Made by a program: the position numbers and the translations under genes
Notes under the pieces: generated by a model
Seen by the model: the letters and a program-made list of their open reading frames with translations, nothing else
What the model was told of the DNA's origin: nothing
Database searches by the model: none
NCBI GenBank assembly: GCA_018830845.1
Contig: JAHJRS010000007.1
Coordinates: 1 to 11,719 of the forward strand
DNA length: 11,719 nt
DNA from: Nanobdellota archaeon
Lineage (GTDB): Archaea; Nanobdellota; Nanobdellia; Pacearchaeales; GW2011-AR1
Reading direction: 5' to 3'
Shown: positions 6,394-10,738 of the stretch, in pieces
Layout: each line of letters begins with the position of its first letter
Position numbering within the stretch: the stretch's first letter is position 1

Positions 6394-7218
6394 ATGGAGG
6401 AAGTGATAAGCGCAAAAGATTATGACTTTCTTGTCGGACGTTTAAGAGATTTTTTCAGATCTAAGAATTTTATTGAGGTTCCTTCTCAGACAAGGACTTC
6501 AATACTTGCGGCTTGTGAGGATCCAAAAACCGTTTCTCATTTTGAAATCGGAGGAAAATTGTGGCCTCTTCCCCAAACAGGACAAATGTGGCTTGAAATT
6601 GAACTTTTAAAAAATCCGGAATTTTCGGGGGTTTTTTGTATTACAATAAGTTACAGAAATGAACCAAGTCCAATTCCTGGGAGGCACAATCTGGTTTTTC
6701 CGATGTTTGAATTTGAATCCTGGGGGGATATTAATTTGTTAAAAAAACTTGAAAAAGAACTTCTTAGTTTTCTTGGCTTTAAAAATTCATTAAGTGTTGA
6801 TTATGAAAAAGTTTGCAAGGAACATAAGGTTGAAATTTTAGAATCAAAAGATGAAGAGAAGCTTTGGAAGTCAAGAGGGGAAGTTATTTTTCTTGAAAAA
6901 TTCCCTGAAAGAACAAGTCCTTTTTGGAATATGAAGCATGCAGGAGGAGGAATTTTTAAAAAAGTCGATGTTATTTTATGTGGAATGGAAACAATTGGAA
7001 GTGCCGAAAGGTCATGCAATGTTGAGGAAATGAAAAAAAGTTTTTTTACAATCTCCGACGGAGGTTATTCAAATCTTCTTTTTGATCTGTTTGGAAAAGA
7101 GAGAGTCACAAAAGAGCTTGAAGAGTACCTTTCATTGAAAATGGTTCCTAGGTTTGGTGGAGGAATAGGAATGACGCGGCTTTTGAGGGCGATGAAACTT
7201 TCAGGGATTTTGGATTAA
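6394..7218 (+). CDS. Class II Asp/Asn-tRNA synthetase-like protein without anticodon-binding domain (asparagine synthetase candidate)
   Basis: A 274-residue class II synthetase catalytic core. Motif 1 lies around RDFFRSKNFIEVPSQT (18-33), with Pro30. Motif 2 is SYRNEPSPIPGRHNLVFPMF (86-105) running into EFE, with the conserved Arg88 and Glu90. The ATP/amino-acid site GMETIGSAERS is at 197-207, and motif 3 is GGGIGMTRLLRAM at 255-267. There is no N-terminal OB-fold anticodon-binding domain, so it is not a normal AspRS or AsnRS. Known relatives of this shape include archaeal asparagine synthetases derived from AsnRS and bacterial AsnA, which make asparagine from aspartate, ammonia and ATP. That role is inference; aminoacylation of another carrier is an alternative. 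ATG start with no ribosome binding site and a very A/T-rich upstream region. Its last 18 bases overlap the convergent 2H phosphoesterase gene. Confidence 0.8.
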   Translation: MEEVISAKDYDFLVGRLRDFFRSKNFIEVPSQTRTSILAACEDPKTVSHFEIGGKLWPLPQTGQMWLEIELLKNPEFSGVFCITISYRNEPSPIPGRHNLVFPMFEFESWGDINLLKKLEKELLSFLGFKNSLSVDYEKVCKEHKVEILESKDEEKLWKSRGEVIFLEKFPERTSPFWNMKHAGGGIFKKVDVILCGMETIGSAERSCNVEEMKKSFFTISDGGYSNLLFDLFGKERVTKELEEYLSLKMVPRFGGGIGMTRLLRAMKLSGILD

Positions 7219-7860
7219 ATTCATAAAATTAATTTTTCCCGAGGTTAATCCGGTTTTTCTTGTGAATTCTTCAATTGTTTTTTTGAAAATTTTTTTATCA
7301 AGCGCTTCTTCCCTTGACAAGAGGTCTTTGAGGAAGAAATCATACTCAAAAAGAATTTTTTTGTTTTTTAAAAGATATGTACGTAAAAGATATTGGTATA
7401 TTGCAGAATTTTTTTCGTTTGTAAAATCTATAATTTTCTTGTAATCTTTTCCAATATAAGCGGTTACATGCAAGATTCTTTTTTTAGAAATCTTTTCTCC
7501 TTCATATCTAATTTTGTTTTCAAGATTTTTTTCAAGGGAATCCACAAAGAGATTCATGTTTTTGTCTGAATTAACCTTTATATAAACCACCTTTTCTTCA
7601 TCCCCGAACAGGTCAAAAATATCAAAATCTCCCAAATTGAATTTCATTGGCTCTTTTTGTTCACTACATGTCTTTTCAAAAATCTCCGAAACCTCTTTTT
7701 CGTTTTTGGTGTGGAAAGGTCTTATAAGAGTTATATGGGGGACATATCTTTCTTCTTCAACGTCAAAAAAATTTCTTTTTTCTTTTAGAAATCTCCTTGA
7801 AAATCCTCTTAACCTTATTCCAATGTGGTATTTATTTTTGGTAATATTTTCTCCCGACAA
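7201..7860 (-). CDS. 2H phosphoesterase superfamily protein (LigT/ThpR-like)
   Basis: This protein carries the two HxT motifs that define 2H phosphoesterases, HITL and HVTA, about 90 residues apart, within VPHITLIRPF and ILHVTAYIG. The N-terminal strand HIGIRL and the C-terminal ILFEYDFFL also fit. Family members act on 2'-5' or cyclic phosphodiester ends of RNA or nucleotides; the substrate here is unknown. Start choice: there is no ATG near the N-terminus. A TTG at 7860 follows a perfect GGAGGT by 10 bases and gives 219 residues. A TTG at 7890 would add 10 residues but lacks such a site. Both overlap the end of the kinase-nuclease gene (stop at 7832), which implies one transcript and probably translational coupling. 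The 3' end overlaps the convergent synthetase-like gene by 18 bases. Confidence 0.8.
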   Translation of the reverse strand: MSGENITKNKYHIGIRLRGFSRRFLKEKRNFFDVEEERYVPHITLIRPFHTKNEKEVSEIFEKTCSEQKEPMKFNLGDFDIFDLFGDEEKVVYIKVNSDKNMNLFVDSLEKNLENKIRYEGEKISKKRILHVTAYIGKDYKKIIDFTNEKNSAIYQYLLRTYLLKNKKILFEYDFFLKDLLSREEALDKKIFKKTIEEFTRKTGLTSGKINFMNLIQNP

Positions 7861-9070
7861 TTTCTTTGAAACCTCCTGAATTCTTCCCAAGAATTGGTTT
7901 TAATTGTTTTTCAGGAGAAGTTAAAACCTTTTTTAGTGTTTTGAATTTATTTAAAAGTTTTTTTGCTTTTGAAGGCCCTATTCCTGGAAAAGATTCAAGA
8001 ATAAAAAGAAGTTCTTCGACAGGAGAAAGTCCCTTTTTTGTAGCTTTTATCTGGGGGGCGCTTTTTTGTTTTTTTGCAATAAGTGAGATATATTTTGCGG
8101 TTTCTTCCTCATCTTTTGAAAAAATTATGGGAACCCCATATTTTATTGCAATTGAAAGTAAAATTCCTCTGAGAGCATTTTCATGAATCCTTCCCTCTTC
8201 TTTTATATTTCCCTCGATTATGAGTATTTTTTGTTCATATTGGGTTAACTCTTCCATTTGAGAAAAGATTCTTTTATCAAAGATTGATGAAAAAAAGTCT
8301 TTTGAAGCTTTTCTTTCAATGGCAACCCCCTTTACAATATAGTCGGCAACTTTTAACTCTTTAAATTCAATAGACAGCCCATTTTTTATTAACTCTGAGG
8401 GAAGGAGGGAGTTTTTTTCCCGAAAGTCAACTTCAACGATCTCTTTTGGTCCTACATCTTTTTTTAGAGTTTCTTTTTTGCTGAATATGTCGTACATTCT
8501 TTTGAAAAAAGAAGAGTTGTGTTTAAAATTTTTTAGGTTGTTGAGTGATGTTAAAATTATTCCAATAACTTCCTCAGGGGCGAGTTTTGAGGTGTCAATT
8601 ATGAGGTTATAGTTTTTTTTGTCTAAAAAATTAACTCCATAATATTTTAGGAATTGGTTCCTTGTGGTATTTAGCCTTTTTTTCAACATGCTTCTTACTT
8701 CAGAAACAGTTTTACATTTTTTTTCATCCTCCCTCTGATCTTTAAAAATTCTTTTTGCTGCAATTTTGTCATCAACTTTTAAAAAAATTTTAAATGAGTA
8801 AGGTATGAAATGGTAAGCGAGCCAGCCCTCCACAAGAAAATTTCCTTCTTTTTTTCCTATTTCAATGGTTCTCTCATCCGCCCTTTTGTGAACCCAATCT
8901 TCTGTTTTCCCTATTTCATTTAGTTCGTCAATTGTAATTCCTCTTTCTTTTGCAATTTCTCCTCGCAGGTCCCCTATCAAAATTTTTTTGCAATTAAAAA
9001 TTTTGGAAATTGTTTTTGCCACAGTGGTTTTTCCTGAACCTGGCAGCCCAGAAATAGTTATTTTCACCAT
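7832..9070 (-). CDS. Fusion of cytidylate kinase with XPF/ERCC4-type nuclease and HhH region
   Basis: One uninterrupted 412-residue frame with two unrelated enzymes. Residues 1 to about 182 form a complete archaeal-type cytidylate kinase: P-loop GLPGSGKTT at 8-16, GDLRGEIAKERGI at 33-45, VEGWLAYHF at 80-88, then KYYGVNFLD and YNLIIDTSKLAPEEV. Residues about 210-335 form an ERCC4 nuclease as in XPF, Mus81 and the C-terminal half of Hef: VDFRE at 214-218 and the catalytic IERKASKD at 251-258, followed by a Hef-like VPIIFSKDEEETAKYI. Residues about 352-405 form a helix-hairpin-helix region (FPGIGPSKAKKLL). The kinase should phosphorylate CMP/dCMP; the nuclease should cut branched or fork DNA. 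Met192 could start a separate nuclease, but no ribosome binding site precedes it. It lies 94 bases downstream of the Hef-like helicase gene on the same strand. Confidence 0.88.
   Translation of the reverse strand: MVKITISGLPGSGKTTVAKTISKIFNCKKILIGDLRGEIAKERGITIDELNEIGKTEDWVHKRADERTIEIGKKEGNFLVEGWLAYHFIPYSFKIFLKVDDKIAAKRIFKDQREDEKKCKTVSEVRSMLKKRLNTTRNQFLKYYGVNFLDKKNYNLIIDTSKLAPEEVIGIILTSLNNLKNFKHNSSFFKRMYDIFSKKETLKKDVGPKEIVEVDFREKNSLLPSELIKNGLSIEFKELKVADYIVKGVAIERKASKDFFSSIFDKRIFSQMEELTQYEQKILIIEGNIKEEGRIHENALRGILLSIAIKYGVPIIFSKDEEETAKYISLIAKKQKSAPQIKATKKGLSPVEELLFILESFPGIGPSKAKKLLNKFKTLKKVLTSPEKQLKPILGKNSGGFKEIVGRKYYQK
7871..7876 (-). promoter_or_regulatory. Shine-Dalgarno sequence inside the kinase-nuclease gene
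   Basis: GGAGGT on the minus strand lies 10 bases before the TTG at 7860, within the 3' coding end of the upstream gene. It is the only strong ribosome binding site I noticed in front of a gene here. It supports the TTG at 7860 as the 2H gene start and co-transcription with the upstream gene. Confidence 0.55.
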
Positions 9071-9094: not shown

Positions 9095-9104
9095 ATTTAA
9101 TAAA
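9095..9104 (-). promoter_or_regulatory. TATA-like box for the kinase-nuclease gene
   Basis: The minus strand reads TTTATTAAAT, centred about 29 bases upstream of the ATG at 9070, in the 94-base gap after the helicase stop. It suggests this gene can be transcribed separately from the helicase gene. Confidence 0.4.
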
Positions 9105-9164
9105 GATTTATGGGAAAGAACATAATCAAAAGAAGACTCTTCTCCCTAAAAATTAAGGGTTTTT

Positions 9165-10709
9165 TTAAAATAATTTTCTTTGAATGGGTTTTTTGGATTC
9201 AAACAATTCTTTTTTTATCTTTTCAATTGACTTTTGCATTTTCTTTTCGCGGGAACGTGAGGCATAATAGGCAAATTCATCTTTTGTGTCTTTTGTGATA
9301 AGGATTATTAATTTTCCTTTGCTCAGGCGTGCCGTTCTTCCACGGCGTTGGATTGACCTGATTGCAGAAGAAACGGGTTCGTAAAAAATTACCAAATCCA
9401 CCTCGGGAATGTCCAGGCCCTCTTCCCCAATAGAGGTTGCACAGATAACATTGGTCTCTCCGTTTGAAAACTCTTCAATTATCTTTTTTTGCTCCTTCTG
9501 CGAGAGTCCGCCCCCGTCTTTTTTAGCCTGGCCTACAAATACTTTGGATTTTATTCCCTTGAGATTGTTTATACTCTTTGAAACAAGATTTGCCGTATCT
9601 CTGAACTGGGTAAAGATGATTGTTTTTAGGTTGTTTTTATTTTTCCCTTCGTCCCTTACAACTTTAATTATCTCTTTGATTTTTGGATGCTCTTCTCCTT
9701 TTTGAATTAAGAATCTTGTTTTGTCATATGCCAAAATAAAGTCCTCTCTTTTTGCAAGCCTTATAACTCCCTTTGATTGCCTTTTTTCGGCCTGATTCAA
9801 TATGTTTTTTTGATACTTGTGAAAGCTTTCAATTGTTTGAGTTTCAAGAAGTTCAAGTGCATGAGAAATTTTTATTGCCTGTGCAACGAGTGAGATTGCA
9901 AAATAGCTTGAGGGGCTGGAAAAGTTTCTTGATAACTGGCTTCCAAGTTTTTTCTGAAGTTCTATAAGGGCTATTTTATTTGAAGGGCCAAAAAAGAAAT
10001 TTTTTATCCTCAATTCATCGACGTATTCTTCATATATTCTTTGAAGGATGTTTTTAATTTCTTTTATTTCTTTAGTCAATTCAACCTCTCTTTTTTCGAA
10101 CTGAAGTTCCTGAAGGTATATTTTTACATCCGGAGAATCTCTTGTTCTAAGTTCCACCTCTTCAATTGAAAGATTTTTACATATTTCCTTTATTTTTCCG
10201 GCATCGCTTCCTGGGGAGGCTGTTAGTCCGATGATTCTTGGATTATTTGAACTTTCCATATACTTTTTTGCAACAAAAGTGTAGTCATAGTTTTTTGTGC
10301 ACCGGTGAGCCTCGTCTTCAATTAAAAGGCATACTTCATTTAGAGAATACAATCTTTTTTTAAGGTCATTTGCAATGCATTGAGGGGTTGAAAAAATTAT
10401 GTCCGCCGTTTCCCAGATTTTTTTCCTTTTTTTGGCGTGCACGCTTCCTGTGAAAAGTTCAAGTGAACCAAAAAGATCCGGAAGGTTTTTTTTGAAATAA
10501 AGAAGATGCTGTTCTGCAAGGGGTCTTGTGGGGGCAAGGAACAATACTTTTTCGCCGGGAAAATTTTGCATCCTTTTTATCGCAACCATTAAGGCAACAA
10601 GAGTTTTTCCTATTCCGGTGGGCAGGACCACGAGGCAGTTTTTTTCTACACATGTTTTAAAAATTTCTTCCTGGTATTTTCGGGGGGTCAAATTTTTTAA
10701 AAATTCCAT
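9165..10709 (-). CDS. hef: Hef-like SF2 (DEAH) DNA helicase lacking its nuclease domain
   Basis: A 514-residue superfamily 2 helicase of the Hef/FANCM/MPH1 group, which remodels stalled replication forks and branched DNA. Motifs: Walker A LPTGIGKT at 29-36, Ia LAPTRPLAEQ at 58-67, Walker B DEAH at 132-135, motif III TASPG at 163-167. A family-typical helical insertion spans about 200-340. Then come FVGQAKKDGGGLSQKEQ at 391-407, ATSIGEEGLDIPEVDLV at 424-440 and motif VI QRRGRTAR at 454-461 (usual form QRRGRTGR). Euryarchaeal Hef continues into an XPF nuclease. This protein stops after the helicase, and the nuclease follows as a separate gene. The C-terminal end PIQRKLF resembles a shortened PCNA-binding motif. 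ATG start with a TATA box centred 26 bases upstream, leaderless-looking. Confidence 0.93.
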   Translation of the reverse strand: MEFLKNLTPRKYQEEIFKTCVEKNCLVVLPTGIGKTLVALMVAIKRMQNFPGEKVLFLAPTRPLAEQHLLYFKKNLPDLFGSLELFTGSVHAKKRKKIWETADIIFSTPQCIANDLKKRLYSLNEVCLLIEDEAHRCTKNYDYTFVAKKYMESSNNPRIIGLTASPGSDAGKIKEICKNLSIEEVELRTRDSPDVKIYLQELQFEKREVELTKEIKEIKNILQRIYEEYVDELRIKNFFFGPSNKIALIELQKKLGSQLSRNFSSPSSYFAISLVAQAIKISHALELLETQTIESFHKYQKNILNQAEKRQSKGVIRLAKREDFILAYDKTRFLIQKGEEHPKIKEIIKVVRDEGKNKNNLKTIIFTQFRDTANLVSKSINNLKGIKSKVFVGQAKKDGGGLSQKEQKKIIEEFSNGETNVICATSIGEEGLDIPEVDLVIFYEPVSSAIRSIQRRGRTARLSKGKLIILITKDTKDEFAYYASRSREKKMQKSIEKIKKELFESKKPIQRKLF

Positions 10710-10731: not shown

Positions 10732-10738
10732 TTATAAA
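10732..10738 (-). promoter_or_regulatory. TATA box for the Hef-like helicase gene
   Basis: The minus strand reads TTTATAA, centred 26 bases upstream of the ATG at 10709, with no ribosome binding site between. The core also reads as TTATAAA on the plus strand, so it could serve transcription to the right as well. Confidence 0.5.

Follow-up and report, generated by a model that had tools for sequence, protein, structure and literature searches.

A CMP kinase fused in frame to the nuclease half of a split Hef in one genus of Pacearchaeales

Enzymes of the XPF/Hef group are structure-specific endonucleases, and the XPF-type active site has the consensus (G)D...ERKxxxD. To our knowledge, XPF-type enzymes are not expected to release free mononucleotides. 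In Hef, the archaeal helicase-associated nuclease of the FANCM/XPF family, a disordered region joins the helicase to the nuclease and binds a RecJ-like nuclease, PCNA and other partners (PMC5717133, PMC7776575); the second of these papers is also consistent with XPF/Hef proteins being structure-specific endonucleases.

In this paper we describe a gene in a Nanobdellota archaeon whose two halves each resemble a known system. The window, by which we mean the whole stretch of 11,719 nucleotides that was analysed, encodes a nuclease that corresponds to Hef positions 568-779 and to the Hef nuclease structure 1j22, while the neighbouring gene corresponds to Hef positions 15-514. Unlike in Hef, helicase and nuclease are separate genes, with a kinase taking the helicase's place as the fusion partner of the nuclease. 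The nuclease shares with the short form of XPF from A. pernix (2bgw, 33% identity in a model comparison) a nuclease and a probable helix-hairpin-helix region without a helicase, but it differs from the archaeal short form in coming from a split Hef and in having a kinase in front (NF040956 score 121.7, cut-off 300). The kinase is like the archaeal (d)CMP kinases of TIGR02173 in sequence over its whole length, in its P-loop and in its fold, although its score lies at the cut-off (100.7 and 103.2 bits in two NCBIfam runs over residues 2-176, cut-off 102.1) and it carries a C-terminal fusion. Judged by their NCBIfam names, CMP kinases are fused to unrelated partners elsewhere, as in the kinase/GTPase Der proteins (NF007071) and the pantoate-beta-alanine ligase/kinases (NF010004), but neither partner is a DNA-repair nuclease. 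In relatives of the window, kinases of the same family are fused to a deoxyribosyltransferase-like domain in the same place between the Hef halves, but there the nuclease remains separate. Our literature search found no paper joining a cytidylate kinase with ERCC4 and none on Hef helicase or nuclease in Pacearchaeota; in the titles and opening lines of the abstracts of further records there was nothing on a kinase-nuclease fusion or a split Hef.

The gene, its domains and its neighbour are as follows.

7832 to 9070, minus strand: fused open reading frame of 412 residues, a CMP kinase and the nuclease half of a split Hef (open reading frame list, Pfam, NCBIfam, relatives)
8531 to 9070, minus strand: archaeal (d)CMP kinase domain, residues 1-180 (TIGR02173; model pLDDT 84-97 in blocks of ten)
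9023 to 9049, minus strand: P-loop GLPGSGKTT, residues 8-16 (sequence; G8 and G11-T16 invariant in all five fused proteins)
8456 to 8530, minus strand: linker, residues 181-205, predicted to be disordered (pLDDT below 50 in the model)
8066 to 8440, minus strand: ERCC4/XPF nuclease domain, residues 211-335 (PF02732 over 214-329; Foldseek match to the Hef nuclease 1j22, 44% identity)
8297 to 8317, minus strand: catalytic motif ERKASKD, residues 252-258, with D243 upstream as part of the motif
7844 to 8023, minus strand: probable helix-hairpin-helix region, residues 350-409 (helices in the model; match to A. pernix XPF 2bgw)
9165 to 10709, minus strand: Hef helicase half of 514 residues, a separate gene just upstream of the fused frame (NF010337 over Hef positions 15-514, 570 bits)

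The frame runs uninterrupted from an ATG at 9070 to a stop codon at 7832-7834. A sequence-only reading had proposed a complete CMP kinase and a complete nuclease in one 412-residue frame, and profile searches bear this out; the strand, which had not been given, is minus. Pfam places kinase families over residues 4-162 and ERCC4 over residues 214-329 (87.4 bits, cut-off 24), and the Hef family NF010337 covers residues 180-409 with 185 bits, against a cut-off of 610 that is set for the whole of Hef. The helix-hairpin-helix region proposed at the same time has its helices in the predicted structure, but its PF14520 score of 20.4 bits falls below the Pfam cut-off of 27. In the nuclease, D243, E252, R253, K254 and D258 are invariant in all five fused proteins, the first motif reading AD and not GD, and in the kinase K14, T15, T16, R107, R113, R132 and D159 are likewise invariant. 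The kinase half may nevertheless be drifting or have been exchanged, since the Arg of GDLRGEIA is replaced by Gln in one fused protein (G010) and the P-loop of another (G003) reads GEIGSGKTT.

The structure was predicted from an alignment of 29 chosen rows. Residues 1-180 and about 208-409 are modelled with confidence, whereas 181-205 have very low confidence, and the kinase half resembles the CMP kinases 2h92 and 7l4a among other P-loop kinases in a Foldseek search. With a pTM of 0.47 for the two-domain model and no predicted interface between kinase and nuclease, the two domains are, in the model, without a fixed mutual orientation. In the window's genome (564,663 bases, 97 contigs, 75% complete) the 412-residue query has no second match at E 0.001; a weak second kinase-family match is found on contig 48 (21.5 bits). 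Elsewhere in the window, positions 6394-7218 encode a 274-residue protein with a class II core (tRNA-synt_2), weakly like archaeal asparagine synthetase A, in which Pfam and NCBIfam matched no anticodon-binding family.

The earlier suspicion that the joining of these two domains is not a standard architecture was well founded. The same layout is found in 5 of the 11 genomes of the genus, the window's own included, and the fused proteins of the other four (G002, G003, G005 and G010) are stop-free and align to the query from residue 1 or 2 to 410 or 412 with 60-67% identity; three of these are named records that come from different projects (JANLHM010000005.1, JAUYLQ010000005.1, JAGVXF010000013.1). 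Although 53 of 55 genomes in one search, own genome included, and 181 of 200 genomes of the order match the query, full-length matches among those listed for the order belong to the five fused genomes only, the others listed covering either the kinase or the nuclease. Among the matches listed for 371 genomes of the phylum, full-length ones are likewise confined to the five. In what was searched, the architecture is therefore restricted to one genus, and it is new to us. A viral origin was rejected, as no relative came out of a scan of viral contigs. In G006 kinase and nuclease are separate genes overlapping by 8 nt (ATGTATGA), and they are separate and overlapping in G004, G015 and G167 too. 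Since G006 is the sister of the fused G003, the fusion is dispensable.

The fused gene is best understood against the layout of its locus. The window nuclease matches the C-terminal part of Hef and the adjoining upstream gene its helicase part, and because the helicase half is a gene of its own at 9165-10709 we regard this as a split Hef and not as Hef. From the order we retrieved 155 nuclease loci and analysed them by script; 140 have both Hef halves on one piece, and at every one of the 140 the halves are distinct genes that share a strand. The halves overlap by 4 nt in 24 of the 140 loci and lie at most 10 nt apart in 55, the fused ones not being among them. Unsplit Hef in one frame was seen at 12 loci of the same class, chosen for their long frame and one of them cut by a contig end, and the linker is short in most. 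A kinase gene lies between the halves in 15 genomes, where it stands alone, carries a deoxyribosyltransferase-like domain, or is joined to the nuclease. The second arrangement occurs in G001, G008, G007, G018, G097 and G179, and the fold of the partner domain is that of 2'-deoxyribosyltransferases and CMP N-glycosidases (best match 6evs, E 8.9e-6; model pLDDT 73). Other inserts are miscellaneous and mostly single, among them HpaII restriction-modification genes, homing endonucleases and proteases; in G141 (L082, 2008-4072) an HpaII restriction endonuclease gene and a C5 methylase gene are inserted between the halves.

Our preferred reading, to which we give a probability of about 0.58, is that a split Hef with an inserted kinase gives two products, a tethered and a free nuclease, and that the two enzymes work independently on one tether. 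A split Hef, with its fork helicase and fork nuclease genes, would have acquired a CMP-kinase gene between the halves, and in the window's genus the kinase, which has no stop codon, would read in frame through the nuclease promoter into the nuclease. The promoter at 9095-9112 would give the 412-residue kinase-linker-nuclease, and the internal promoter at 8518-8535 a free nuclease of 221 residues from Met192. On a flexible tether the kinase may convert (d)CMP to (d)CDP, while the nuclease may dimerise and, with the helicase half supplied by its own gene, cut forks or flaps. Activity of the internal promoter, the existence of both products and the retention of both activities are inferred. The features on which this reading depends are the following.

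9095 to 9112, minus strand: promoter-like site of the fused frame, CATAAATCTTTATTAAAT, TATA at -34 (matrix score, relatives)
8518 to 8535, minus strand: internal promoter-like site, TAAAAAATTTTAAACACA (BRE and TATA), TATA at -30 from the Met192 codon
8495 to 8497, minus strand: ATG of Met192, likely a second start, for a free 221-residue nuclease (invariant among the five fused genes; in G006 and G001 it corresponds to the codon with which the separate nuclease begins)
8474 to 8497, minus strand: MYDIFSKK, residues 192-199, a peptide conserved at the N-terminus of the split nuclease, which we read as loosely PCNA-box-like (motif count)

TATA-like hexamers are concentrated at -30 to -25 before the ATGs of the genus, with 82 pattern matches against 10.7 expected in 102 genes from 11 genus loci. 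This very sharp signal, about 25-31 nt before start codons and seen for example at 10733-10738 of the window, suggests that transcripts in the genus are mostly leaderless or nearly so. We built a promoter matrix from 54 genus sites, excluding open reading frames with MYDIF (median training score 12.0). With this matrix the top-scoring position of each fused gene is the site before Met192 (among 1221 positions in the window and 1224, 1224, 1266 and 1224 in the others), with scores of 9.9-12.8. Its TATA lies at -30 in the window and at -33 in the other four; the latter position is outside the genus peak of -29 to -27, and the genus pattern matches number two at -33 and four at -30. Of 1277 windows of 8 nt only 2 are fully conserved, and one of them is the core TTTAAACA, which starts with the codons of Phe182-Lys183. 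In the five fused genes GC content falls to 6-25% over the 48 nt that precede Met192, compared with 27-32% for the genes. Upstream of the fused frame, the identical 18 letters of the window's promoter-like site are found in G005 and G010 and, with one letter changed, in G003, while the matrix scan gave no good site there in G002.

It had been suggested that the fusion merely reflects co-expression in a compact genome. This agrees with relatives whose kinase gene stands by itself between the Hef halves, but simple co-transcription is not the whole story, because the window's helicase half has a TATA-like element of its own, and so does its fused frame.

Over the order, a promoter-like site is commoner before nucleases that are set apart from the helicase. 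A site scoring at least 7 precedes the nuclease in 16 of 72 loci where it is set apart from the helicase (56 score below this threshold), in 2 of 60 where it lies within 60 nt (Fisher p 0.0017 for 16/72 against 2/60) and in all five fused loci; 18 of the 155 loci were left out, four for want of a usable ATG and the others because no helicase was present or an end was too close. Among separate nucleases, those of G006, G001, G008, G004, G007, G167, G015, G097 and G179 have no such site and that of G018 has one. Because of the rank and position of the site, the conserved ATG and the set-apart comparison, we read the linker as a translated nuclease promoter, and a free 221-residue nuclease is probably made from Met192 beside the fusion. 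The -33 position in four genomes and the many set-apart nucleases that have no such site speak against this reading. We did not accept the conservation of Met192 alone as proof of a start; it is also compatible with a conserved hxDIFSK peptide.

The same observations raise the question whether the nuclease is made from Met192 only, with the linker frame incidental, the kinase transcript ending before the nuclease and no fused protein at all. The strong internal promoter-like site and the invariant ATG would suit this, as would the T-rich run that follows the TATA in the window's genome (G000), G002 and G003. But none of the five genomes has a stop after the kinase. Over the 48 nt that precede Met192 the kinase frame stays open in 5 of 5, whereas stops occur in 9 of 10 cases in the two remaining frames, and linker indels among the five genes are multiples of three only. 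Lacking a stop, the kinase could be completed as a protein of its own only if its transcript ended early. The sequence-only reading had named Met192 as a possible sole start of the nuclease; it does look like a start with its own promoter, but for this reason it is hardly the sole one, and we consider a nuclease made from Met192 only to be rather unlikely. For the fused product the per-genome controls are weak. Per genome, 6-35% of synonymous draws attain the observed score of the Met192 site, and shuffling leaves the linker frame open with a chance of 11-32%, so that no single genome is telling for either, and the five genomes are related. That both products are made would be the simplest reading of these sequences.

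The N-terminal peptide of the split nuclease has a possible connection with PCNA. The motif [DNEHQ]IF stands ahead of the nuclease core in 120 of 155 loci, compared with 5% after shuffling. A PIP box has the form Q-x-x-h-x-x-aromatic-aromatic, and in MYDIFSKK the Gln is absent and I-F stands where two aromatics would be expected; a fuller HQKQISDIFHK is found only in G007. We thus do not call a PIP box in the split nuclease, and PCNA binding stays an idea only. In 7 of the 12 unsplit Hefs, examined by eye, the linker contains LxxFI. The helicase halves end in Qxx[LI] within their last 14 residues in 99 of 130 cases, against 14% after shuffling (IQRKLF in the window, at about 9165-9200), and these ends may be a remnant of the PCNA-box-like linker of full Hef. 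A looser ending, [QK]xx[LI], is present in 109 of 130 halves and was discarded, as 47% of shuffles reach it.

The history of the fusion appears to be complicated. On the Hef tree a single clade of the five fused genes is rejected (p-AU 0.0003) and G003 groups with the unfused G006 (support 100/97). The kinase tree, made without G147, separates G003 and G010 from G000, G002 and G005 and places G010 beside G015 and G018, but a single clade is not firmly rejected (p-AU 0.057). A single origin thus has the Hef tree against it, though the linker letters shared among the fused genes speak for common descent. As the five are not monophyletic on the Hef tree, there was either repeated gain and loss of the fusion or an exchange of kinase halves.

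A further result concerns the locus as a whole: across the order, nucleotide-metabolism genes are far commoner between the split Hef halves than expected. Such a gene lies between the halves or is fused at 31 of 140 loci, a count from which the overlap rule missed two more (G098, G156). Among open reading frames of at least 130 residues, 39 of 83 between the halves match nucleotide-enzyme queries, against 0 of 1322 in the flanks. The queries (kinase, deoxyribosyltransferase-like, IMPDH, deaminase, reductase and adenylosuccinate synthetase) were picked after seeing the set between the halves, the flank set includes spurious and syntenic frames, and related genomes are not independent. For these reasons we added whole-genome counts, changes on a tree and an unselected Pfam scan. 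CMP-kinase matches of at least 60 bits occur in 33 of 200 genomes, 15 of them at the split-Hef locus (5 of 23 outside the genus). IMPDH matches occur in 44 of 200 genomes, 12 beside the nuclease; the piece from G045 lacks the helicase half. Deaminase matches are found in 121 of 200 genomes, with at least 12 at the locus among the matches listed and 15 by script, and reductase matches in 126 of 200, with 4 at the locus. On the tree, 27 of 122 genomes have any nucleotide gene at the locus and 14 changes are needed. The unselected scan covered 110 flank frames of at least 200 residues, one per locus from the 1322, and among the 25 of 36 families listed it gave one carbamoyltransferase member and otherwise no recognised nucleotide enzyme.

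Several individual loci deserve description. In other families of the order a ribonucleotide reductase large subunit lies between the halves (L104, 4476-6611; L106, 5980-8088). A cobalamin adenosyltransferase homologue accompanies the reductase at 3 of 4 loci, one of them checked with Pfam, and at L106 (4370-4885) it is of the BtuR type. A short adenylosuccinate synthetase and an FAD-dependent protein form a pair between the halves in G092 (L078, 7496-8566 and 6076-7494) and also in G091, G090 and G122. In G199 a P-loop kinase of the AAA_18/cytidylate-kinase type is fused to a guanylate kinase domain (L075, 741-1841; PF00625 over 186-365), and in G055 one 396-residue frame holds two P-loop nucleotide-kinase-like domains, the second matching Cytidylate_kin2 (L073, 5364-6554).

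The recurrence of nucleotide genes at the locus (39/83 against 0/1322, CMP kinase 15/33, IMPDH 12/44), together with a frame kept open in five divergent genomes, could point to a true bifunctional enzyme, whose kinase would be recruited to stalled forks by way of the nuclease and the helicase half, and perhaps PCNA, and would supply (d)CDP locally or sense (d)CMP to tune the nuclease. We think this quite improbable: the model has no domain interface, the fusion was gained and lost repeatedly or its halves exchanged, and the linked genes, most of which encode separate proteins, act on purines and pyrimidines alike. In addition, an endonuclease is not expected to yield free dCMP. Coupling through the release of (d)CMP-containing ends, as once speculated for this gene, fares badly for that last reason and because the two domains have no fixed orientation in the model; direct channelling of released dCMP is not supported. 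An assembly or sequencing artefact, a missed stop or frameshift near 8500, has a negligible chance, for although the window is one contig of an incomplete draft, the same stop-free frame recurs in four other assemblies, of which three are named records, which means that it is no sequencing slip and that the indel once feared there is absent.

With two independent enzymes on one tether as the preferred reading, the gene is a new domain architecture whose stages of origin are visible in relatives: full Hef, split Hef, a kinase inserted, and a kinase that runs on into the nuclease. Should the internal promoter prove active, this would be a clean natural example of a protein linker derived from a promoter. 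In our view, a more interesting lead than the fusion itself is that nucleotide genes have repeatedly been recruited to the split-Hef locus. It is plausible that nucleotide supply and fork repair are tied together here, and such a tie in tiny-genome archaea did not turn up in our literature search. More tentatively, and with more doubt than belief, we suggest that the split-Hef locus of the order may be a module of fork repair and nucleotide supply, in which a reductase with its cobalamin enzyme, a deaminase, an IMPDH-like protein, an adenylosuccinate synthetase, a CMP kinase and kinase-deoxyribosyltransferase fusions would have been recruited so that dNTP supply and fork restart act together. 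The window's genus would then have reached a single polypeptide across a stretch read both as promoter DNA and as linker, giving a tethered and a free nuclease.
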